Below are positions 1,104 through 11,208 of a stretch of 64,000 bases of DNA, piece by piece. Source of the DNA: Cellulomonas dongxiuzhuiae (GTDB lineage: Bacteria > Actinomycetota > Actinomycetes > Actinomycetales > Cellulomonadaceae); the NCBI RefSeq assembly GCF_018623035.1, contig NZ_CP076023.1:1364001-1428000 (forward strand). Direction: 5' to 3'. The position numbers and the translations under genes are program-made. The notes under the pieces were generated by a model. That model worked only from the letters and a program-made list of their open reading frames with translations, ran no database searches and was not told where the DNA came from. Numbering within the stretch: position 1 is the first letter of the stretch; the number at the start of each line of letters is the position of its first letter.

Positions 1104-4100
1104 GTGGCGCGCGCTCGCATGCGGTCGGTCATCGCCGCCGTGGTGGCGGTAGTCCTCGGTCTCACGCTGGGCGGGCCCGCTGCGGCGGCCACGACCGACG
1201 GAGTCGACCCCCTCGCCGACCGCTCATGGGTCGTGTCCCTGGTGTCCTCGGGGACGCCGTCGGTACGGCGCGCCGCAGAGGCTGCGCTGCTCGGATCCGA
1301 CGCCGACCTGCAGGAGTTCGTGGAGTCGGGCTTCGACGAGGCGCTCGCCGCGGACTACCGGGCGGCGGCACAGGTGCTGGGCAGCACGGACGGACCGGCG
1401 TTGCGATCGGCGGCGACCAAGGCGCTGGCGGGTCCACCGGAGGCGTTGCGGACCTTCGTCGACGGGGGGTTCCGCACCGCTTGGGCAGCCGACGAGGAGC
1501 TGCGCGTGGTGCGGGCCATGGACAGCGCCGGCGCCAAGACGCGAGAGGTTGCCGAGAAGGCGTTGGAGGGGGACGTCGAGGAGTGGTCCCACTTCCTGTC
1601 CTCCGGCCTGGCACAGGCCCGGTTCGTCGACGAGGAGATGGCCGCCACGCGGATGCTCGACGGAGGGGCGAACAACAGTGCTCCTGCGTCCTCGTCGCCG
1701 AGTGCCCTGGGCCTCGCCGCGCAGGCCGCCCTGGACGGGTCCCCGGAGGAGCTGCACGAGTTCCTGACGCACGGCCAGCACGTCGCGCGGGCGCGCGACG
1801 CGGAGATGGCCACGGTCGCGGGACTGACGGAGCAGGCGAAGGTTGCCGGCGAGGCGACCGCGACGCATGCGGCGGACGCGACGTCGGCCTCGGCGCGCGC
1901 GGTCGCGGCAGCCCAGCGCGCCAAGGAAGCGGCGCAGGAGGCACTGGCCCAGACCGAGGCGGCCGGTGGTGCGGCGCAGGGCGCCTCCGCGGCGGCGGGA
2001 CGCGCGGCGGATGCCGCGGCGGCGGCAGAAGGTGCGGCAGCGGAGGCGTCGGCCGCGTCGAGTGCCGCGTTGCGTGCCGCGCAGACGGCCGCCGACGGGG
2101 CGCGTCGGGCCACCGCCGCGGCCTCCTTGACGGCTCGCGCTGCCGCGGCAGCGCAGTCCGCCGCCGCGGCGGCACGTGCCGATGCAGGGAAGGCTGCCGA
2201 GGCGCGCGCCGCGGCACAGGCGGCGCGGGACGCCGCTGCGCAGGCGGCGGTGCTCGACGAGGTGCGTCGGCAGCGTGACGCCGCCTTGGCGCAGGCGCGA
2301 ACGGCGGCGGGTGCGGCGGCCGGCGCCAGCGTGAACGCCGATGCCGCGGCGACGGCGGCGGACACCGCGTCGCGTCAGGCCGGGGTCTCGGCCGCGCAGG
2401 CGAAGCGGACGCGGGCCGCGGCTGCGTCCGCCAAGAACCAGGCGGCGGTCGCCGCCTCCGCGGCGGCCCGCAGCCTGAAGTTCGCCGAGGACGCCGCGGC
2501 TGCCAGCGACGAGGCGTTCTCGTTCGCGTCCCAGGCTGCCCGGTACGCGACGGCCGCGGCGGCTGCCGCTGACGAAGCCGCGGCACAGGCGGGCATCGCT
2601 GGTGCAGCCGCTGCCGAGTCCGCGGCGCACGCGGCCGAGGCGACCAAGGCCTCGGAGCTGGCAGTGGCGGCAGCCGAGCAGGCGGCGAAGGTCGAGCAGC
2701 TCGCGCGGCGAGCGGACTCGGCACGGCTGGAGGAGGCGACCGACCAGGGTATCGCCGCCGCACAGGAGGCCTTGGCCGCGGAGAAGGCGTCGACCGGTGC
2801 GGGCGGGGAGGCCGCCGGATGGGACCGGGAGCTGCGCTGGGACACGGAGGAGGAGGACCGGGTCCCGCCTGCGACGCGCGAGCTGCTGGACGCGGCCGGT
2901 GCCGACGGGGCCTCGGACCGGGTCGTGGTGGACAAGGGGCGCCGCGCGGCGCTGGCCCTGATGAGCACGGGCGGCGAGTGGACGAAGGCCGCCGCCGTGG
3001 AGGCGCTGGCCGGTGACGAGACGGTCCTGAGGTCCTGGCTGGAGACCGGACGGGCGCTTGCCGCCGGCCAGGACAACCGGGCACGGCTCTGGCACCTGGT
3101 CGACACCCTGCCAGACGGGCAGGAACGGACGGCCGCGCGTACGGCGCTCGACGGGGACGACGCCGCGGTGGCCACGTTCCTGCGGACCCGCGCCTACCCC
3201 CGCAAGGCGTTGGACGACCAGGTGGCGTTGGCGCGGATCCTGGAGTCGAACCCCGGACCGGCGCTGTACGAGGCGACGCAGCGCGCACTGGACGGCACGG
3301 CGCACGACGCTCACGAGTTCCTGCGCACCGGGCAGTACGTAGCCCGCACGGCCGACCAAGAGGTCGAGATCGCCCGGGTGATGCAGGCCGGCGGGGCGGA
3401 GGTCAAGGCCGCCGGGCAGGTGGCGCTGGAGGGGCCGGCGTCCTACAAGTCCTACTTCCTCGCCGTCGGGCAATACCAGGCCGCTCAGCGAGACGTGGAG
3501 CAGGCGGCGCACGTCCAGGCGGTGAAGGGCCTGATCGCTCAGGCGCAGCAGTACGCCCAGACCGCGCTGGCCGACGCCGCCCGTGCCCGGCGCGTGGCGG
3601 CGGAGGCCCAGGGTGCGGCCGCGGAGGCCGCGGCCGCCGCGAACCAGGCCGCCGCTGCGGCGTCCAGAGCCGCCGGCTACGCCGACGAGGCTGCCCGGTC
3701 CGCGGCTGCGGCCAAGAGCTCCGCCGATCAGGCCGCCGCGTCGGCGCAGGCCGCCCTGGTGGCGGCCGACACGGCGCACGCTGCGGCGCGCGACGCCGCG
3801 GGATCGGCCACGACGGCCGCTGCCGCCGCGCAGCGGGCAAGCGGCGATGCCGCCGAGGCGCAGTGGGCCAAGCAGGACGCGCGCGCATCGGCCAAGGCGG
3901 CGGGCATGGACGCGGTGGCCGCCGAGGCAGCAGCACAGCAGGCAGTCGTGACCTACTCGAGCCGGCTGGAGGAGTGGCAGCAAGCGAGCCGCAGCTCGGC
4001 ACCCGGTACGGGCAGTGACGGCGCGAGCGCCGCCGTCGACACCCACAGGTACTGGAACTGTCTGACATCAGTCGACACGGCGCTCGGCTCGCCGGACGTC

Positions 4101-5264
4101 TGCATCAACGGCTTCAAGGCGTTCGGTGAGGTGATGCTGAATCCCGCCAAGTGCGCCACGCCGCTGAGTCGGGATTCGTTGGGCTGCTCGATGCTCAGCG
4201 AGTTCAAGCGCTTTGTCGGAGGCAACGCCGATCTCATGTGGGACGTTGCCCAGCTGGCACTGGGGCTGTGCGGTCTCATCCCCGCGGTCGGCGAGGTTTG
4301 CGACGCACTGGATGGCGCCGTTTCCGCAGCGAGGGGCGATTGGGCCGGAGCCGGGCTTTCCCTCCTTGCGATGGCGCCTGGTGTCGGCGTGCTGGCCGGC
4401 TCGGCCAAGGTTGCACGTCTCACGGATCGATTGCGTGAATATGTCGACACCATCCTCGATGGGCTGACCGCCGGACGTCGTGCGAACGTGGATGAGATTC
4501 CGACGGGCCGTGCCTGCCGCACTGCCAGGAGTTTCGGTGCTGAGACCAAGGTGCGACTGGCCGACGGTAGTCACCGGCGGATCAGCGAGATTCGCGTGGG
4601 CGACGAGGTGCTCGCGAGCGATCCTGTTTCTGGTGTGCGCGGTGGGCGAAGGGTCACCCACGTGTGGGTGCATCAGGACGATCTTTATGACCTTGAAGTC
4701 GACGGTGAAGTCGTGGTCACCACCGAGGATCACCCGTTCTGGTCGGTCACGGACCAGAAGTGGGAGGACACGTCTGATCTTCACGAGGGCGAGTTGCTTC
4801 TCGGCGCCGACGGTCGGGAAAGTGTCGTCACGCGTTCGGTCGACTTCGGCTCTCGTCGCGTCGGCACAGCCTTCAATCTGGCTGTCGAGGGTCTTCACAC
4901 CTACCACGTCGGTCTGTTCGCCGTGCTGGTGCACAACTCGGACGGCATCGATCTGTCGGACGCCACCGAGTGGCCGGCCGGCGACTTCCCGGCGGGAGGC
5001 GCCAGGAGTGCGGCCGGCCCGCCCGGGGGAATTCTCTTCCGCGCGAGGAACGGCAGCATAACGAACTACGCCGTCTACGACGAAAACGGGACGATCCTCT
5101 ATCGGGTCGACCTCACGGGCGGCACGCACAGGGGTGTCCCTACGCCGCACGTTCAGGAGTACAGGCACGACGAGCGCCCTGACGGAAAGGTGTTCCCGAA
5201 GCCGACCGGAATCGCGAAGCCCGCCGGTCCCGACGATCTTCCGCAAGGGTGGTGCGAACTGTGA
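1104..5264 (+). CDS. Secreted polymorphic toxin with ALF repeats, coiled coils and Hint domain
   Basis: 1386 residues. A Sec signal peptide (about 1-30, ending near PAAAATTDG) is followed by ALF-type helical repeats (about 50-245), an alanine-rich coiled coil (about 245-600), a second ALF block (about 608-813) and a second coiled coil (about 813-953). Next come a Cys-containing pretoxin segment with hydrophobic helices (about 1046-1106) and a Hint autoprocessing domain (about 1138-1279: TKVRLADG, VGDEVLASDP, TTEDHPFW, HTYHVG, ending LVHNS). The last 108 residues form the toxin module with DLTG..H.GVPTPHVQEY, which resembles polymorphic toxin type 24 from memory only. The Hint family cleaves at the terminal HN/S, here Asn1278-Ser1279, which would free the toxin. 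From about 4070 codon use turns visibly less GC-rich. The GTG has GAGGGGG 5 bases upstream; ATG at 1119 is an alternative start. The overlapping next gene is the expected immunity protein. Confidence 0.85.
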   Translation: MARARMRSVIAAVVAVVLGLTLGGPAAAATTDGVDPLADRSWVVSLVSSGTPSVRRAAEAALLGSDADLQEFVESGFDEALAADYRAAAQVLGSTDGPALRSAATKALAGPPEALRTFVDGGFRTAWAADEELRVVRAMDSAGAKTREVAEKALEGDVEEWSHFLSSGLAQARFVDEEMAATRMLDGGANNSAPASSSPSALGLAAQAALDGSPEELHEFLTHGQHVARARDAEMATVAGLTEQAKVAGEATATHAADATSASARAVAAAQRAKEAAQEALAQTEAAGGAAQGASAAAGRAADAAAAAEGAAAEASAASSAALRAAQTAADGARRATAAASLTARAAAAAQSAAAAARADAGKAAEARAAAQAARDAAAQAAVLDEVRRQRDAALAQARTAAGAAAGASVNADAAATAADTASRQAGVSAAQAKRTRAAAASAKNQAAVAASAAARSLKFAEDAAAASDEAFSFASQAARYATAAAAAADEAAAQAGIAGAAAAESAAHAAEATKASELAVAAAEQAAKVEQLARRADSARLEEATDQGIAAAQEALAAEKASTGAGGEAAGWDRELRWDTEEEDRVPPATRELLDAAGADGASDRVVVDKGRRAALALMSTGGEWTKAAAVEALAGDETVLRSWLETGRALAAGQDNRARLWHLVDTLPDGQERTAARTALDGDDAAVATFLRTRAYPRKALDDQVALARILESNPGPALYEATQRALDGTAHDAHEFLRTGQYVARTADQEVEIARVMQAGGAEVKAAGQVALEGPASYKSYFLAVGQYQAAQRDVEQAAHVQAVKGLIAQAQQYAQTALADAARARRVAAEAQGAAAEAAAAANQAAAAASRAAGYADEAARSAAAAKSSADQAAASAQAALVAADTAHAAARDAAGSATTAAAAAQRASGDAAEAQWAKQDARASAKAAGMDAVAAEAAAQQAVVTYSSRLEEWQQASRSSAPGTGSDGASAAVDTHRYWNCLTSVDTALGSPDVCINGFKAFGEVMLNPAKCATPLSRDSLGCSMLSEFKRFVGGNADLMWDVAQLALGLCGLIPAVGEVCDALDGAVSAARGDWAGAGLSLLAMAPGVGVLAGSAKVARLTDRLREYVDTILDGLTAGRRANVDEIPTGRACRTARSFGAETKVRLADGSHRRISEIRVGDEVLASDPVSGVRGGRRVTHVWVHQDDLYDLEVDGEVVVTTEDHPFWSVTDQKWEDTSDLHEGELLLGADGRESVVTRSVDFGSRRVGTAFNLAVEGLHTYHVGLFAVLVHNSDGIDLSDATEWPAGDFPAGGARSAAGPPGGILFRARNGSITNYAVYDENGTILYRVDLTGGTHRGVPTPHVQEYRHDERPDGKVFPKPTGIAKPAGPDDLPQGWCEL

Positions 5265-5725
5265 CCGCGCATTCCGAGATAGTTCTGACGGACTTCAAGG
5301 AGCTCGATGAATTCCTTGACGACAGAGAACATGACGACCCGAGGACGTTCGTTTCCTACAAAGGGTCGCCAGGGTTGCTTGCTGCGGTGATGAAGTTGTT
5401 GGACCCGCCGCTCGTCGAGCACCGTGGGGCAGTCTTTCTCGGGTTCGCCTTCGATGCTGCGGTGGTGGACGAGTGGTTCCTTCGTCTTGCCGGCGACGTA
5501 GCGGGAGTCGAGCGCATCGTCAACCATCTGCACGTCTGGGAAATTCTTCCGACGAACGCCTTCGACGAGGATGAGGCAAAGCGCCTTGTTGGGCCGATCG
5601 CGCAGTTCTGGCGATCTGCGCTTCAGGCACGATTCCCAGACCGCAGATTCGTCGTCGAGACCGAGTGCGACGCCGATTACGGCCCCGAGGTGACGTTCTA
5701 CACTTCAGCACCCCGCTTGAAGTGA
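5261..5725 (+). CDS. Predicted cognate immunity protein of the upstream toxin
   Basis: A 154-residue acidic cytoplasmic protein without signal peptide or membrane segment. Its GTG at 5261 overlaps the toxin stop as GTGA, and AAGGGTGG lies about 9 bases upstream, so 5261 is preferred over the in-frame GTGs at 5249 and 5252. I do not recognise the family. Immunity is inferred from three things: position directly after a polymorphic toxin, translational coupling, and the same less GC-rich base use as the toxin tip (for example ATTCTTCCGACGAACGCC), as if the two moved together. Known immunity proteins of this class bind and block the toxin inside the producer; nothing in the sequence proves that here. 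Confidence 0.7.
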   Translation: MTAHSEIVLTDFKELDEFLDDREHDDPRTFVSYKGSPGLLAAVMKLLDPPLVEHRGAVFLGFAFDAAVVDEWFLRLAGDVAGVERIVNHLHVWEILPTNAFDEDEAKRLVGPIAQFWRSALQARFPDRRFVVETECDADYGPEVTFYTSAPRLK

Positions 5726-5772
5726 TCCAATGACTCTTGTTCTGTCGAATGAATGATGGAGGGTGTTCCGTT

Positions 5773-6294
5773 ATGAAGCGAGCGCTTGGTTGGACAGGTA
5801 TTTCCCTCCTGGTCGCCGGAGCGGCGGTGGCGGTGCTGAGCGGAGGCCCGGCCGTCGCCGACGCTGAGGTGCAGTCCTCGCTGGTGGAGGACTTCGCGTT
5901 CCCAGGAGCGGACGAGATCCTCGCCGAGCACGGTCTGCGGCTGTACACCGGTGACGGGCACGTGGAGTTCGTACCCGCGGAAGACGAGACGTGCTCCGCC
6001 GGCCTGATCCGTGTGACGGCGTCGCTGCCCGACGAGCCGTACCGGGCGGTGTACTGCTTCAAGACGTCCGGTGCGCGCGGGTTCCTGACGATGGAGGTGC
6101 CCAACACGTTCCTGGTGCGTGCCGCCGCTGTCGCCGTGCAGGCCACGGCCGTGGTGCCCGAGGAGGGCGCGGGGGGTGACCCGGTCCGCGAGGTGTACGA
6201 GGTGCCCGCGAACCGTGCCGTGTCCATCGAGGCCGGATCCGGTGCTGACGCGCCGCCGGCGGTGCTCGTCGAGCTGCGGTTCGGCGACTGGTGA
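5773..6294 (+). CDS. Secreted protein of unknown function
   Basis: 173 residues with a clear Sec signal peptide (MKRALGWTGISLLVAGAAVA, cleavage near AVA-DA at about 29). The mature part is acidic, rich in short beta-prone stretches, with two cysteines (DETCSAG and AVYCFK) that could form a disulfide. The start was set at the ATG with GGAGGG 9 bases before it. I do not recognise the family. It lies between the toxin-immunity pair and three trypsin-fold secreted proteins and shares their orientation. It could be an accessory factor of either group; that is inference from position only. Confidence 0.75.
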   Translation: MKRALGWTGISLLVAGAAVAVLSGGPAVADAEVQSSLVEDFAFPGADEILAEHGLRLYTGDGHVEFVPAEDETCSAGLIRVTASLPDEPYRAVYCFKTSGARGFLTMEVPNTFLVRAAAVAVQATAVVPEEGAGGDPVREVYEVPANRAVSIEAGSGADAPPAVLVELRFGDW

Positions 6295-6384: not shown

Positions 6385-8001
6385 ATGAGGCGCCTGATGC
6401 AGGTGGTCGCCCCCGCCCTGGCGGTGACGTGGACGCTGGCCGTGGTCCCGTCCGCCGGCGCCGTCCAGGGCACTGTCCCGACCAGCGCAGCGGCGGCCGC
6501 GACCGTCGCGATCCACATCGCCGGGGACCCCGATGCTGCGCCCGGCCACGTCCGCGAGCGGGCGTGCTCGGGAGCGTTGATCAGCCAGCGGTGGGTGATC
6601 ACCGCGGCGTCGTGCTTCGGGACCGGCTCCGGAGCACCACGGGAGACGAGCTTCCCCGCGTGGGCCACCAGGGCCACCATCGGCCGTGTCGACCTCACGG
6701 GCACCGCCGGGCGCGTCGTGACGATCGACCTGCTCGTGCCGCACCCGGAGCGCGACGTGGTGCTCGCGCGGCTGGCCACGCCTGTGAAGGACGTCGCCCC
6801 CGTCGCGGTCGCGAGCGCGCCTCCCTCCGTCGGCGAGGAGCTGACCGTGACGGGCTACGGCCGGACGAGCGCCGCGCTCGTCCCGAGCTCCGCGCACGCG
6901 ACGGCGTACCGCGTCACTGCTGCGGGTACGACGACGATCGACATCGCAGGTGCCGAGGCCGGTGCGACGATCTGCAAGGGCGACGCCGGTGGGCCTGCTC
7001 TGCGGTCGACGTCCGGGGGCGGGCTCGAGCTGGTCGCGCTCCACCACACCGCGTTCCAGGGCGGGTGCCTCGGTGCCTCGACGACGCGGCAGGAGGCGAC
7101 CGAGACCCGTGTCGACGACCTCCGCGCCTGGATCAGCAGCCACACGCGGCCGCAGGACGTGTGCGGGCAGGCCGCGGCGGTGTCGTCGAGCGGCATCGGC
7201 AACGGTCAGCTCGTCCGCACGCCCGACGGCACGATCTACGTCGTCGCCGGCGGGGCGAAGTACCCGCTGTCGTACGCGCAGTGGTCGGCGATGGGCCTGC
7301 GGGCGTACGCCGACATCTCGGTGGCGGCTGCGGCCGAGCTCGCGGACGTGCCACGTGACGGGACGTTCCTGCGGGACATGGCGACCGGGTCGATCCACGG
7401 GATCACCGGCGGGATGCCCTACGCGCTGGCCTCGCTGGGCCAGTGGCAGGCGCTCGGTTCCCCGGCGTACGTCGACGTGCCCGTCGGGTTCATCAACCGG
7501 GTCGCCGACCTGCCACCCGCCGGTCCCGTGATCCTGCGGGACCCGGCCTCGGGCGCGATCCACCAGGTCGTCGGGTGCTCCCGCTACCAGCTGTCCCTGG
7601 CCGAGTGGCAGGCGCTCGGTTCGCCCGCGTACATCGAGGCGTCGGCCTCCTTGATCGACCGCGTGCCGACCGGGGTCCCGACGCGGCCGGTGATCCTGCG
7701 TGACCGTGCCGACGGCAGCATCGTCCAGGTCGTGGGAGGCGCGAAGCACGGGCTGACGATGACGGAGTGGCAGGCCCTCGGTCTGCCGCCGTACACCGAG
7801 GTCCCGACCGGCCTGCTGGGCCGGATCAGCAAGACGGTGCCGGACGGGCCGGTGCTGCTGCGCGACCCCGTGACTGGGTCCATCCACGAGGTCGCGGGTG
7901 GCGTGAAGCGGGGACTCGACCTCGCGCAGTGGCAGGCGCTCGAGAACCAGGCGTACGTGGACGTCCCGGCCAGGTGGCTGGCGCGGATCCCGAACGCGTG
8001 A
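6385..8001 (+). CDS. Trypsin-fold pseudoprotease 1 with five C-terminal repeats
   Basis: 538 residues: a signal peptide (about 1-26), an S1/chymotrypsin-fold domain (about 27-255) and five repeats of about 54 residues (about 275-538). The fold landmarks are present: CSGAL...WVITAASCF, RDVVLARL, CKGDAGGPAL and a GGCLG loop, with the usual cysteine pairs Cys61/Cys77 and Cys197/Cys228. The catalytic triad is broken: the His position is Ser76 (TAASC instead of TAAHC) and the nucleophile is Ala201 (GDAGGP instead of GDSGGP); Asp124 is kept. Peptidase activity is therefore not expected, and a binding or inhibitory role is more likely. Start ATG at 6385 has AAGGAG 8 bases upstream. Two paralogs with the same substitutions follow. 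Confidence 0.9.
   Translation: MRRLMQVVAPALAVTWTLAVVPSAGAVQGTVPTSAAAAATVAIHIAGDPDAAPGHVRERACSGALISQRWVITAASCFGTGSGAPRETSFPAWATRATIGRVDLTGTAGRVVTIDLLVPHPERDVVLARLATPVKDVAPVAVASAPPSVGEELTVTGYGRTSAALVPSSAHATAYRVTAAGTTTIDIAGAEAGATICKGDAGGPALRSTSGGGLELVALHHTAFQGGCLGASTTRQEATETRVDDLRAWISSHTRPQDVCGQAAAVSSSGIGNGQLVRTPDGTIYVVAGGAKYPLSYAQWSAMGLRAYADISVAAAAELADVPRDGTFLRDMATGSIHGITGGMPYALASLGQWQALGSPAYVDVPVGFINRVADLPPAGPVILRDPASGAIHQVVGCSRYQLSLAEWQALGSPAYIEASASLIDRVPTGVPTRPVILRDRADGSIVQVVGGAKHGLTMTEWQALGLPPYTEVPTGLLGRISKTVPDGPVLLRDPVTGSIHEVAGGVKRGLDLAQWQALENQAYVDVPARWLARIPNA
7207..7998 (+). repeat. Five tandem about 54-residue repeats in pseudoprotease 1
   Basis: Five copies of a unit reading roughly PVILRDPASGSIHQVVGG, then LSxAEWQALGSPAY and VPxGxLxRV, begin near nucleotides 7207, 7366, 7531, 7693 and 7855. 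The pattern (ligand-facing R-D/P-G-S-I, then a Trp-containing helix) resembles small modules seen at the ends of actinobacterial wall-associated proteins, which suggests attachment or ligand binding. Copies differ at about half their positions, so this is an old repeat array, unlike the near-identical array of the next gene. Confidence 0.8.
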
Positions 8002-8098
8002 ACGCGTGGTGACGAGTGCGCGCGCTCGACCGAGGGCTGCGCAGTGACAGATCGACGGTGATGGTGCCGCGAGGCGCCACAGGACGGAGGCAGCTGCT

Positions 8099-9628
8099 GT
8101 GGACAGGTGCATGCGGGTCCGGATCGGCGCGGCGGTCGCCGCGCTCGCGATGACGTTGGCCGGGGCGTCAGTGGCGCACGCCGTGGGTGGCGCCGTGCCG
8201 GAGGGTACGGTCGCGGCTGCGACGGTGAAGCTCGACATCGCGGGTGACCCTGGCACCGCGCCCGGTCAGACGCGTGAGCGGTCCTGCTCCGGTGCGTTGC
8301 TCGGGGCGTCGTGGGTGATCAGCGCCGCGTCGTGCTTCACCGGGCCGCAGGGTGACGCGGTGAGTGCTGGTGCTCCTGCGTGGCCCACCACTGCGACGGT
8401 GGGGCGGGTCGACCTGAACGGGACGGCCGGCCACGTGGTGCGGGTCGACCGGCTGGTGCCGCACGAGGAGCGTGATGTCGTACTGGTACACCTGGCCTCG
8501 CCGGTCACCGGCGTGCCCGCCGTCACCGTGGCCTCGACACCGCCCGCGGTCGGGGACGAGGTCACGGTCAGCGGCTTCGGGCGGACCACCGACCGGGTGG
8601 TGCCGGACACCGCGCACGCTGCGGCGTACACCGTCGGGGCGATCGGGGACGGCACCCTGGACATCCAGGCCGCGCAGGAGGGCGCCACGATCTGCAAGGG
8701 CGACGCTGGTGGACCCGCGCTGCGCGCCACGGCGACGGGTGTGGAGCTGGTCGCGATCCACCACACCGCCTACCAGGGCGGGTGCCTCGGGGCCACGAGC
8801 ACGCGGCAGGACGCCACCGAGACCCGCGTCGACGACGTGCGTCTCTGGATCGCCGGGCACGTCTCGCCCCCGCCGTCGCCGAGCATCCTCGTCAAGCACA
8901 TCTACACCGTGAATGGTGGCCAGGTGCACGAGGCGGCGTCGAACAACGGCTGGAAGAGCCTGAATGCCGGGATCTCGACGTCGGGGGCCGTGGCGGTGAT
9001 GGCGATGGACGGCGTGAAGTACGTGTACACGGTCAACGGTGGTCAGGTGTACGAGGCGGCGTCGAACAACGGCTGGAAGAGCCTGAATACCGGGATCTCG
9101 ACGTCGGGGGCCGTGGCGGTGATGGCGATGGACGGCGTGAAGTACGTGTACACGGTCAACGGTGGCCAGGTGTACGAGGCGGCGTCGAACAACGGCTGGA
9201 AGAGCCTGAACACCGGGATCTCGACGTCGGGGGGTGTCGCGGTGATGGCGATGGACGGCGTGAAGTACGTGTACACGGTCAACGGTGGCCAGGTGTACGA
9301 GGCGGCGTCGAACAACGGCTGGAAGAGCCTGAACACCGGGATCTCGACGTCGGGGGCTGTCGCGGTGATGGCGATGGACGGCGTGAAGCACGTGTACACG
9401 GTCAACGGTGGCCAGGTGCACGAGGCGGCGTCGAACAACGGCTGGAAGAGCCTGAACACCGGGATCTCGACGTCGGGGCCCGTGGCCGTGTTGTCGTCCC
9501 GTGGCGTCAAGTACGTCTACACGGTCAACGGAGGACAGGTGCACGAGGCGGCGTCGAACAACGGCTGGAAGAACATCAGCTCGCTGGTCGCGACGTCCGG
9601 GCCGCTGGCCGTCCTTGGTCTGCAGTAG
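8099..9628 (+). CDS. Trypsin-fold pseudoprotease 2 with six-blade repeat domain
   Basis: 509 residues: a signal peptide (cleavage near AHA-VGG at about 28), an S1-fold domain (about 29-258), a short Pro linker (PPPSPS) and six 41-residue repeats to the C-terminus. As in its neighbours, catalytic His is replaced by Ser78 (SAASC) and catalytic Ser by Ala203 (GDAGGP), with Asp126 kept, so it is a predicted pseudoenzyme. GTG at 8099 has GGAGG 8 bases upstream; ATG at 8111 would be too far from that site. The 3' part of its S1 domain is almost identical in DNA to the next gene (8742-8842 against 10437-10537), pointing to recent duplication or gene conversion. Confidence 0.9.
   Translation: MDRCMRVRIGAAVAALAMTLAGASVAHAVGGAVPEGTVAAATVKLDIAGDPGTAPGQTRERSCSGALLGASWVISAASCFTGPQGDAVSAGAPAWPTTATVGRVDLNGTAGHVVRVDRLVPHEERDVVLVHLASPVTGVPAVTVASTPPAVGDEVTVSGFGRTTDRVVPDTAHAAAYTVGAIGDGTLDIQAAQEGATICKGDAGGPALRATATGVELVAIHHTAYQGGCLGATSTRQDATETRVDDVRLWIAGHVSPPPSPSILVKHIYTVNGGQVHEAASNNGWKSLNAGISTSGAVAVMAMDGVKYVYTVNGGQVYEAASNNGWKSLNTGISTSGAVAVMAMDGVKYVYTVNGGQVYEAASNNGWKSLNTGISTSGGVAVMAMDGVKYVYTVNGGQVYEAASNNGWKSLNTGISTSGAVAVMAMDGVKHVYTVNGGQVHEAASNNGWKSLNTGISTSGPVAVLSSRGVKYVYTVNGGQVHEAASNNGWKNISSLVATSGPLAVLGLQ
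8894..9625 (+). repeat. Six near-identical 123-bp tandem repeats (six-bladed propeller candidate)
   Basis: Units start at 8894, 9017, 9140, 9263, 9386 and 9509; each encodes 41 residues built on YTVNGGQVHEAASNNGW, KSLNTGISTSG and VAVMAMDGVK. Copies 1-5 differ by a handful of bases; copy 6 is diverged and ends the protein two residues short. Six short beta-rich units with conserved GG and NNGW turns fit one blade each of a tectonin/tachylectin-like beta-propeller lectin, which is inference. DNA identity this high allows copy-number change by slippage or recombination. Confidence 0.9.
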
Positions 9629-9789
9629 GTCGAGCGGCCGGCGTCTCGAACAGGCGTCGGGACCGCTGGAAGGCGCGGGTCGCACGGCGCGCGCTTCGAG
9701 TGTGCCGAGATCCCCGCATGAGTGATGGGTCGAGATGCACGTGAGCGTGTCGGACGAGGCAGCGGGTCGGGACAGGGAGAACGGTGCAC

Positions 9790-11208
9790 ATGCGCAAGTC
9801 ATGGACGGCGCGAGTCGCAGCGGTCGCCGCCGTGGCGGCGCTGGCGGGTGCGGGAGTGCCGGTCGCTCACGCGGTCGAAGGCATCCTCCCGACGGGTGCG
9901 GCGGCTGCGGTGACAGTGAAGCTGGACATCGCGGGTGACCCCGCTGCGGTACCGGCGCCCGGCAAGCCGCGCGAGAAGTCGTGCTCGGGTGCTCTGCTGA
10001 GCGCGTCGTGGGTCATCAGTGCGGCGTCGTGCTTCGCCGAGACCCCGGGTGCGGCGGTGAGCGCGGGTGCTCCGAAGTGGGTGACGACTGCGACGGTCGG
10101 GCGGGCGGATCTCACCGGCACGTCCGGCCACGTGGTGCAGGTGGACCGGTTGGTACCGCACCCGGATCGGGACGTGGTGCTGGTGCACCTGGCTGCGCCG
10201 GTGCGTGACGTGGCCGCGGCGAAGGTGGCGAGCGCGGCCCCGCAGGTCGGTGAGGAGCTGGCGGTCGCCGGGTTCGGGCGTACGGCGGACCGGGTCGTTC
10301 CTGACACGGCGCACGTGGCGACGTTCACGGTGGGTTCGGTCGCCGTCGGGACGATCGACATCGAGGCGGATCAGGCCGGTGCCACGATCTGCAAGGGCGA
10401 TGCGGGCGGGCCGGCTCTGCGCACGACGTCGACGGGTGTGGAGCTGGTCGCGATCCACCACACCGCCTACCAGGGCGGGTGCCTCGGTGCCACGAGCACA
10501 CGCCAGGACGCCACCGAGACCCGCGTCGACGACCTGCGGGACTGGGTCGACCGGTCGACGGCACCCAAGCCCGGACAGGCGGAGTTCAACGACGCGTACG
10601 TGGCGTCCGTGTACCGCCACGTCCTGGGCAGGGAGGCAGGCGCCTCGGAGATCGCCGTGTGGACGTCCGCCATCGGGAGCGGGGCGTCGCTCCAGATGGT
10701 CGCGGAGGGGGTCACCGGCTCGGCGGAGTGGCGCAACCGATTCGTCGACGAGCAGTACCGCCTGCTGCTCGGCCGTCCGGCGGACGCGGCGGGGCTCGCC
10801 ACCTGGGGCGGGGTTCTCGACCAGGGCAAGGGCACGTTCGCGGTCACCCAGGGCATCGTCGGCTCGGCCGAGTACTTCGCGCGCGCCGGATCGGACGACG
10901 CAGGCCTGGTCAAGGCGCTCTACCGGGACCTCCTGGGGCGCGAAGCGGGTGCAGGCGAGGTCAGCGCCTGGTCGGCGACCGTCGCGACCTACGGGCGCGA
11001 CGCTCTGCTCAGCGGGATCGTGAACTCCCCGGAGCATCAGAACCGCGTCGTCGACCAGCGCTACCGGCAGATGCTGGGCCGCCCTGTCGACCCTGCAGGT
11101 CTCACCACCTCGGTCGACGCACTGTCGCGCGGCGGCACGGTCCAGCAGCTCCTGGCCCGGTTGGCCGGCAGCGGCGAGTACACGGACGGACGGGTCAGGG
11201 CGCTGTGA
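9790..11208 (+). CDS. Trypsin-fold pseudoprotease 3 with DUF4214 repeats
   Basis: 472 residues: a signal peptide (cleavage near AHA-VEG), an S1-fold domain (about 29-258) and a helical C-terminal region (about 265-472). The latter has DUF4214-type repeats such as VYRHVLGREAG, YRLLLGRPADAAGL, LYRDLLGREAG and YRQMLGRPVDPAGL. The catalytic positions carry Ser80 (SAASC) and Ala205 (GDAGGP), Asp128 is retained, so proteolysis is not expected. ATG at 9790 lies about 10 bases after AGGGAG; GTG at 9784 is a less well-spaced alternative. DUF4214 occurs in secreted or surface proteins of many bacteria without a settled function. This is the third member of the tandem family, and each member has a different C-terminal display module. 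Confidence 0.9.
   Translation: MRKSWTARVAAVAAVAALAGAGVPVAHAVEGILPTGAAAAVTVKLDIAGDPAAVPAPGKPREKSCSGALLSASWVISAASCFAETPGAAVSAGAPKWVTTATVGRADLTGTSGHVVQVDRLVPHPDRDVVLVHLAAPVRDVAAAKVASAAPQVGEELAVAGFGRTADRVVPDTAHVATFTVGSVAVGTIDIEADQAGATICKGDAGGPALRTTSTGVELVAIHHTAYQGGCLGATSTRQDATETRVDDLRDWVDRSTAPKPGQAEFNDAYVASVYRHVLGREAGASEIAVWTSAIGSGASLQMVAEGVTGSAEWRNRFVDEQYRLLLGRPADAAGLATWGGVLDQGKGTFAVTQGIVGSAEYFARAGSDDAGLVKALYRDLLGREAGAGEVSAWSATVATYGRDALLSGIVNSPEHQNRVVDQRYRQMLGRPVDPAGLTTSVDALSRGGTVQQLLARLAGSGEYTDGRVRAL

Follow-up and report, generated by a model that had tools for sequence, protein, structure and literature searches.

Gene organisation of the locus

The DNA analysed here (the window) is a stretch of 64,000 nucleotides from Cellulomonas dongxiuzhuiae (contig NZ_CP076023.1), and the studied interval, 6385-11208, contains three consecutive plus-strand genes that each encode a signal peptide (recognised by eye), a trypsin-fold domain, here called the handle, and a C-terminal tip. 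The interval is the last third of a unit ordered umbC, candidate umbD, umbB and three umbA, and it omits the remainder of the toxin unit (1104-6294). The UmbB-like gene lies two open reading frames (ORFs) downstream of the UmbC-like toxin gene. Minus-strand ORFs across the locus look like shadow frames of GC-rich genes. The features are as follows.

1104..5264, plus strand: UmbC-like toxin; eight ALF stretches, PT-HINT and Ntox24 in Pfam; alanine-rich presumed coiled coil; phmmer against PDB entry 8w20 chain A, E=9.3e-103
1230..1787, plus strand: ALF repeats 1-4 of the UmbC-like toxin (PF03752 matches in its own genome)
2940..3482, plus strand: ALF repeats 5-8 of the UmbC-like toxin (PF03752 matches in its own genome)
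4551..4940, plus strand: pretoxin HINT domain of the UmbC-like toxin (PF07591, E=2.1e-13)
5016..5201, plus strand: Ntox24 C-terminal toxin domain (PF15529, E=8e-12)
5249..5725, plus strand: candidate immunity protein of 158 residues in the UmbD position, proposed only from its place directly 3' of the toxin; no family in Pfam or NCBIfam scans
5773..6294 (ATG; alternative TTG at 5737), plus strand: UmbB-like adaptor; phmmer against 8w20 chain B, E=7.4e-11 (frame 5737-6294)
5881..5892, plus strand: L-V-E-D motif of the UmbB-like adaptor, counterpart of the UmbB A-V-E-D motif (PMC11062931)
6385..8001, plus strand: UmbA-like protein 1; phmmer against 8w20 chain C, E=1.9e-39
6463..7152, plus strand: inactive trypsin handle 1; Ser57 codon 6610-6612, GxGRT Arg 6862-6864, Ala195 codon 6985-6987
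7153..7998, plus strand: tip M1 of protein 1, 282 residues, five repeats of about 54 residues
8099..9628 (GTG 8099 or ATG 8111), plus strand: UmbA-like protein 2; phmmer against 9oee, E=2.8e-39, and 8w20 chain C, E=7.6e-38
8183..8869, plus strand: inactive trypsin handle 2
8733..8790, plus strand: 58-base identical run near the handle-tip junction of protein 2, same bases as 10430-10487
8870..9625, plus strand: tip M2, six 41-residue TVNGG repeats, propeller-like by eye
9784..11208 (GTG 9784 or ATG 9790), plus strand: UmbA-like protein 3, assigned from Pfam Trypsin and a handle 73% identical to handle 2
9874..10566, plus strand: inactive trypsin handle 3
10430..10487, plus strand: partner of the 58-base run in protein 3, same bases as 8733-8790
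10567..11205, plus strand: tip M3, DUF4214 (PF13946, E=4.4e-27)

PADLOC gave no anti-phage match among the five proteins scanned, and an anti-phage system was therefore dropped as a candidate.

Loss of catalytic residues in handles under purifying selection

All three handles read AASC and GDAGGP, so that trypsin positions 57 and 195 are Ser and Ala, and they keep Asp102 and four cysteines, C42, C58, C191 and C220 in chymotrypsin numbering. This confirms in every copy what an earlier note had described from the DNA. Pfam Trypsin matches all three proteins (E 8.4e-18 to 6.7e-17), the handles share 63-73% pairwise identity, and a profile built from them found no fourth site at E<=0.01 in the 3.98 Mb genome. 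The fold, Asp102 and the cysteine pairs are shared with active S1A trypsins. Unlike in those enzymes, His57 and Ser195 are replaced in every copy, for which reason an active S1 peptidase was rejected, and the observed Ser57, Asp102 and Ala195 are the incomplete triad of UmbA proteins. The motif GYGRT or GFGRT, which holds the UmbA Arg, is present in all three handles, and VED in the UmbB of the window. This Arg was equated with the Arg156/166 of the published UmbA by sequence alignment, not by structure.

To place these residues among relatives, 81 handle sequences from relatives and the window were compared, of which seven (three repeat occurrences of the window itself and four duplicates) were removed; both the Arg column and the His57 column could be read in 72 domains, 67 without His57 and five, all from other genomes, with it. 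The Arg occurs in 67/67 His57-less domains and in 0/5 His57-bearing ones (Fisher p 7e-8, with related sequences treated as independent), and the five active-type relatives also keep Ser195. Among the 67 inactive-type domains Asp102 is always kept, position 57 is Ser in 62, Thr in three and Ala in two, and position 195 is Ala in 45, Thr in 18, Ser in three and Gly in one. The loss of His57 is fixed in inactive-type domains and Ala195 is not, so that the claim of fixed His and Ser changes stands for the window copies and for His57 among the relatives, but not for Ala195. The GxGRT Arg together with His57 loss offers a one-residue diagnostic, which separated the UmbA type from the active type in all 72 domains.

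The three handles of the window, compared with one another, give ratios of nonsynonymous to synonymous substitution rates (dN/dS, NG86 method) of 0.27-0.36, at dS 0.67-0.87; another 11 pairs give 0.08-0.37, which is also the range over all 14. Values this far below 1 rule out decay and bear out the proposal of selection on a non-catalytic role. A separate UmbA (L060:7456-9342) carries Ala57 and Gly195 and has neither UmbB nor UmbC within 19 kb; it is possibly an orphan diverging from the family.

The three proteins as probable subunits of an umbrella toxin particle

Proteins 1 and 2 find their best PDB matches not among proteases but in 8w20 chain C and 9oee, each of which bears the name 'Secreted esterase' (E 1.9e-39 to 2.9e-36). 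We take 8w20 to be the Umb1 particle of Streptomyces coelicolor. Its chain set agrees with that described in PMC11062931. The gene row of the window matches all three chains, A, B and C, of 8w20 (phmmer). The toxin at 1104-5264 combines the eight ALF stretches, PT-HINT and Ntox24 with the chain A match, its coiled coil being assigned by similarity only; the polymorphic toxin that had been noted beside the family thus proves to be UmbC-like. Because the upstream genes match the remaining 8w20 chains and the candidate immunity gene stands between them, the unit is regarded as an umb locus. In the phmmer alignment the LVED of the window UmbB lies opposite the VED of the solved UmbB, and V-E is invariant in 18 aligned UmbB sequences (18 of 22 UmbB-matching ORFs, picked from 20 that hold the motif; the other two are UmbA-UmbB fusions reading LVERF).

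The trypsin domain of S. coelicolor UmbA has an incomplete triad and no detected activity, its cleft binds the extended N-terminus of UmbB through the Glu of A-V-E-D and an Arg, and the variable UmbA tips sit at the spoke ends on the ALF ring; particle assembly and target binding have both been published for this species (PMC11062931). The tips recognise species-specific surface polymers (PMC13274773). From homology to this system we conclude, with high confidence, that proteins 1 to 3 serve as the UmbA subunits in a secreted antibacterial umbrella toxin particle encoded together with 1104-6294. Assembly, secretion, tip ligands and target cells in C. dongxiuzhuiae would follow by analogy.

In such a particle, UmbC would form a ring of ALF repeats and a stalk bearing HINT and Ntox24. 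UmbB would dock onto the ALF repeats, and its extended N-terminus with LVED would occupy the substrate cleft of every pseudo-trypsin, the motif Glu pairing there with the invariant GxGRT Arg of the handle; in a cleft without His57 the peptide would be held, not cut. The three tips would project and bind ligands of the target-cell envelope, so that one toxin might be aimed three ways. Of the secreted binding or inhibitor system suggested by the earlier note, the binding function is supported, but the family is neither an inhibitor nor a separate system: by homology, the handle is the UmbB grip of the toxin particle.

Like S. coelicolor Umb1 (8w20/8w22; PMC11062931), the window has UmbA, UmbB and UmbC homologues in one row, eight ALF repeats with HINT, an incomplete handle triad, the UmbB Glu, the UmbA Arg, divergent tips and a candidate immunity gene after the toxin. 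It differs in that all UmbA genes of the genome, three in number, sit at the one locus, where S. coelicolor has one per locus and three orphans, and in its Ntox24 toxin domain, its DUF4214 tip and its Cellulomonas host. As in the UmbA tip families of Streptomycetaceae (PMC13274773), a conserved handle of the inactive trypsin type bears C-terminal modules that vary. The umbrella system, the lost catalysis and inactivity, and the variable tips are already published (PMC11062931, PMC13274773), which reduces the novelty of the earlier note; what this locus adds is its combination of tips, their link with wall hydrolases and the signs of exchange. A family of dead proteases that looked like an orphan would thus turn out to do the aiming for a toxin particle already known, here in an actinobacterium outside Streptomyces.

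The three tips

The C-terminal modules are as previously described, namely repeats of about 54 residues, a six-unit array that resembles a propeller by eye, and DUF4214. They are mutually unrelated (20-25% identity over partial alignments). The M1 repeats are of the W-x-A-L-G type; the repeat counts of M1 (five) and M2 (six) were made by eye, and Tandem Repeats Finder gives 1.8 and 5.4 copies. Pfam recognises no family in protein 1 beyond the handle, and the M1 profile has no PDB match at E<=1. The M2 profile has two insignificant PDB matches only, and the DCX and BNR matches of Pfam to the M2 repeats were taken as artefacts of a near-identical repeat.

Three DUF4214 stretches are present in protein 3 (Pfam). 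M3 has 16 matching PDB sequences at E<=5 (best E=1.6e-8), every one a phycobilisome linker or core-membrane protein. Phycobilisome linkers are helical. At E<=0.001 DUF4214 occurs in three of 42 UmbA tips (window, L049 and L067; L065 lies below the cut-off). In the 42 genomes searched for this family, it stands in frame behind a UmbA handle only in the window genome (G000) and in G038, and the genomes coded g139, probably Streptomyces, gave no match. The printed list of PMC13274773, with 41 families in 12 fold superfamilies (10 folds elsewhere in its text), names no DUF4214, and the family is absent from the main texts of PMC11062931 and PMC13274773, where an earlier listing in the supplementary tables is possible. 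Our literature search returned no paper combining DUF4214 with UmbA.

Signs of tip exchange between handles

A tree of 29 of the 42 handles places those of the window and of L049 in a single group (98/98), within which five kinds of tip occur. Approximately unbiased (AU) tests, for groups chosen after seeing the tree, reject the four M2 handles as one clade (p 9.7e-5) and likewise the window and L049 DUF4214 handles (p 3.6e-5); the M1 and WYYPH groupings are rejected more weakly (0.03 and 0.02). Such disagreement between handle trees and tip type is a sign of tip exchange, and it lends support to the earlier suggestion of diversification by module swapping. Recombination close to the conserved handle end would be the route by which tips pass from one handle to another. 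DNA identity between handles 2 and 3 climbs to 92-95% at the tip-side end, where the 58-base identical run lies; this rise fits recombination near the junction, and it would fit gene conversion of the handles too.

It is conceivable, though unlikely, that the proteins are UmbA but that their tips stayed in place while the handles of one locus were homogenised by gene conversion. Such homogenisation would account for the stretches of 58 and 30 bases in which the genes of proteins 2 and 3 do not differ, and part of the repertoire does appear to be vertically inherited, since the WAWDP and WYLND tips follow the handle tree with one change each; not every tip moves, therefore. Taken alone, the AU tests that reject a single origin of the M2 and M3 handles cannot tell whether tips were exchanged or handles converted. 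Against unexchanged tips, however, stand the M2 tips, whose identity across species (77-78%) exceeds that of their handles (63-65%), and a hybrid tip at L049, in which a DUF4214 start is followed by two M2 blades, as evidence of tip rearrangement.

At L049:12965-16181 the M1-tipped UmbA of G038 stops early. A transposase gene of the ISL3 family (PF01610, E=1.7e-58) lies beside it, with the last M1 repeat of this UmbA on the far side of that gene.

Relation of the tips to peptidoglycan hydrolases

Relatives of the window tips were also examined at the full set of eight non-UmbA sites given by the family M1/M2 searches and the DUF4214 search of the 42 UmbA-profile-positive genomes. Pfam recognises a peptidoglycan hydrolase at four of them: Peptidase_M23 with M1 (L110) and with M2 (L120), and Amidase_2 with DUF4214 (L116, L117). 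The other four (L115, L118, L119, L121) have no Pfam-recognised peptidoglycan hydrolase; by eye, L119 and L121 contain the DCSGxVS known from NlpC/P60, but the PDB match of L119 is insignificant (E=0.35). The DUF4214 tip of the window matches the Amidase_2 tails significantly, although at a low identity of 24-27% (E 3e-16 and 9e-8), and in genome G189 a UmbA tip and an amidase tail are 55% identical over 151 residues. These Peptidase_M23 and Amidase_2 hydrolases thus carry repeat tails related to the window tips, but, unlike the UmbA of the window, a catalytic wall-cutting domain in place of the handle.

Since relatives of the tips occur on peptidoglycan hydrolases, it may fairly be inferred from the sequences that the tips bind cell walls. 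More tentatively, and on a balance that falls somewhat short of even, UmbA tips of this family may have been recruited from the wall-binding tails of hydrolases by recombination that leaves the pseudo-trypsin grip in front of them unchanged, with DUF4214 as an all-helical, non-lectin module for receptor binding and cell-wall targeting. If this were true, umbrella toxins would extend beyond sugar-binding beta folds. UmbA tips and the tails of peptidoglycan hydrolases would then be predicted to bind the same wall polymers, which would aid ligand finding for DUF4214, M1 and M2.

Distribution and alternative functions

The UmbA profile matches 16 of 221 genomes of the family and the UmbB profile 16 of 220, with 14 shared (hypergeometric p 3e-18, related genomes being treated as independent). 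Among 20 fetched UmbA stretches, UmbB is found in 17 and UmbC in 16; L050 has UmbA and UmbB and no UmbC within 19 kb, and the neighbourhoods of three UmbA-holding genomes end at contig ends (L054, L056-L058). At E<=1e-20 a wider profile, A2, matches in 5 of 396 genomes of the order and in 24 of 394 genomes of the class. These tallies are slightly too high as counts of UmbA, because active-type proteins with His57 account for two of the 5 in the order and three of the 24 in the class.

Several observations weigh against assigning the three proteins to an umbrella particle. Two of the 16 UmbA genomes have no UmbB match, namely G045 (at a contig start) and G099 (Ala57, Gly195), and UmbB occurs without UmbA in G080 (internal stop) and G071 (fragments). 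Pfam finds no lectin family among the three window tips. In the window UmbC, ALF2 position 4, which is critical in UmbC1, is Ala as read by eye from the alignment, and the number of spokes is therefore not predictable from the ALF repeats.

Dead S1 folds under purifying selection would also suit a secreted system of decoys or protease inhibitors, one that binds substrates or inhibitors of foreign proteases and stands next to the toxin by chance. We consider it very improbable, because the UmbA and UmbB profiles share those 14 genomes, UmbB and UmbC accompany most fetched UmbA stretches, the Glu of UmbB and the Arg of UmbA are kept, and the nearest relatives of known structure belong to the particle. 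A FusH-like secreted esterase has the least to recommend it and can practically be dismissed: NF000157 FusH (NCBIfam) does match all three proteins (E 1.3e-37 to 3.1e-44), in keeping with the PDB chain name, but at 130-152 bits it is far under the curated cut-off of 999, for which a FusH-type fusidic acid esterase was rejected, the match ends before the handle does in proteins 2 and 3 and takes in 21 of the 282 tip residues in protein 1, and Pfam finds no hydrolase family besides the trypsin fold in the three window proteins.

Further relatives

The window UmbC, with its toxin domain, has its closest relative in another genus (L053:9924-14240; 71% over 1384 residues). This relative adjoins a UmbA with a different tip, and no match to the candidate immunity protein of the window was found in the 18 kb there. 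Outside the window, in the same genome, a separate 394-residue frame (L014, G000:C1:3880127-3880528, minus strand) has ALF repeats with three Pfam matches, a signal peptide by eye, a tail resembling a sortase-type anchor (LAATG, a hydrophobic stretch and RRRR) and neither coiled coil nor toxin, and it appears to be a small surface ALF protein. L061, L062 and L068 are UmbA-UmbB fusions, two of which read V-E-R-F instead of V-E-D-F; fusion proteins of this kind are also known from published work (PMC11062931).

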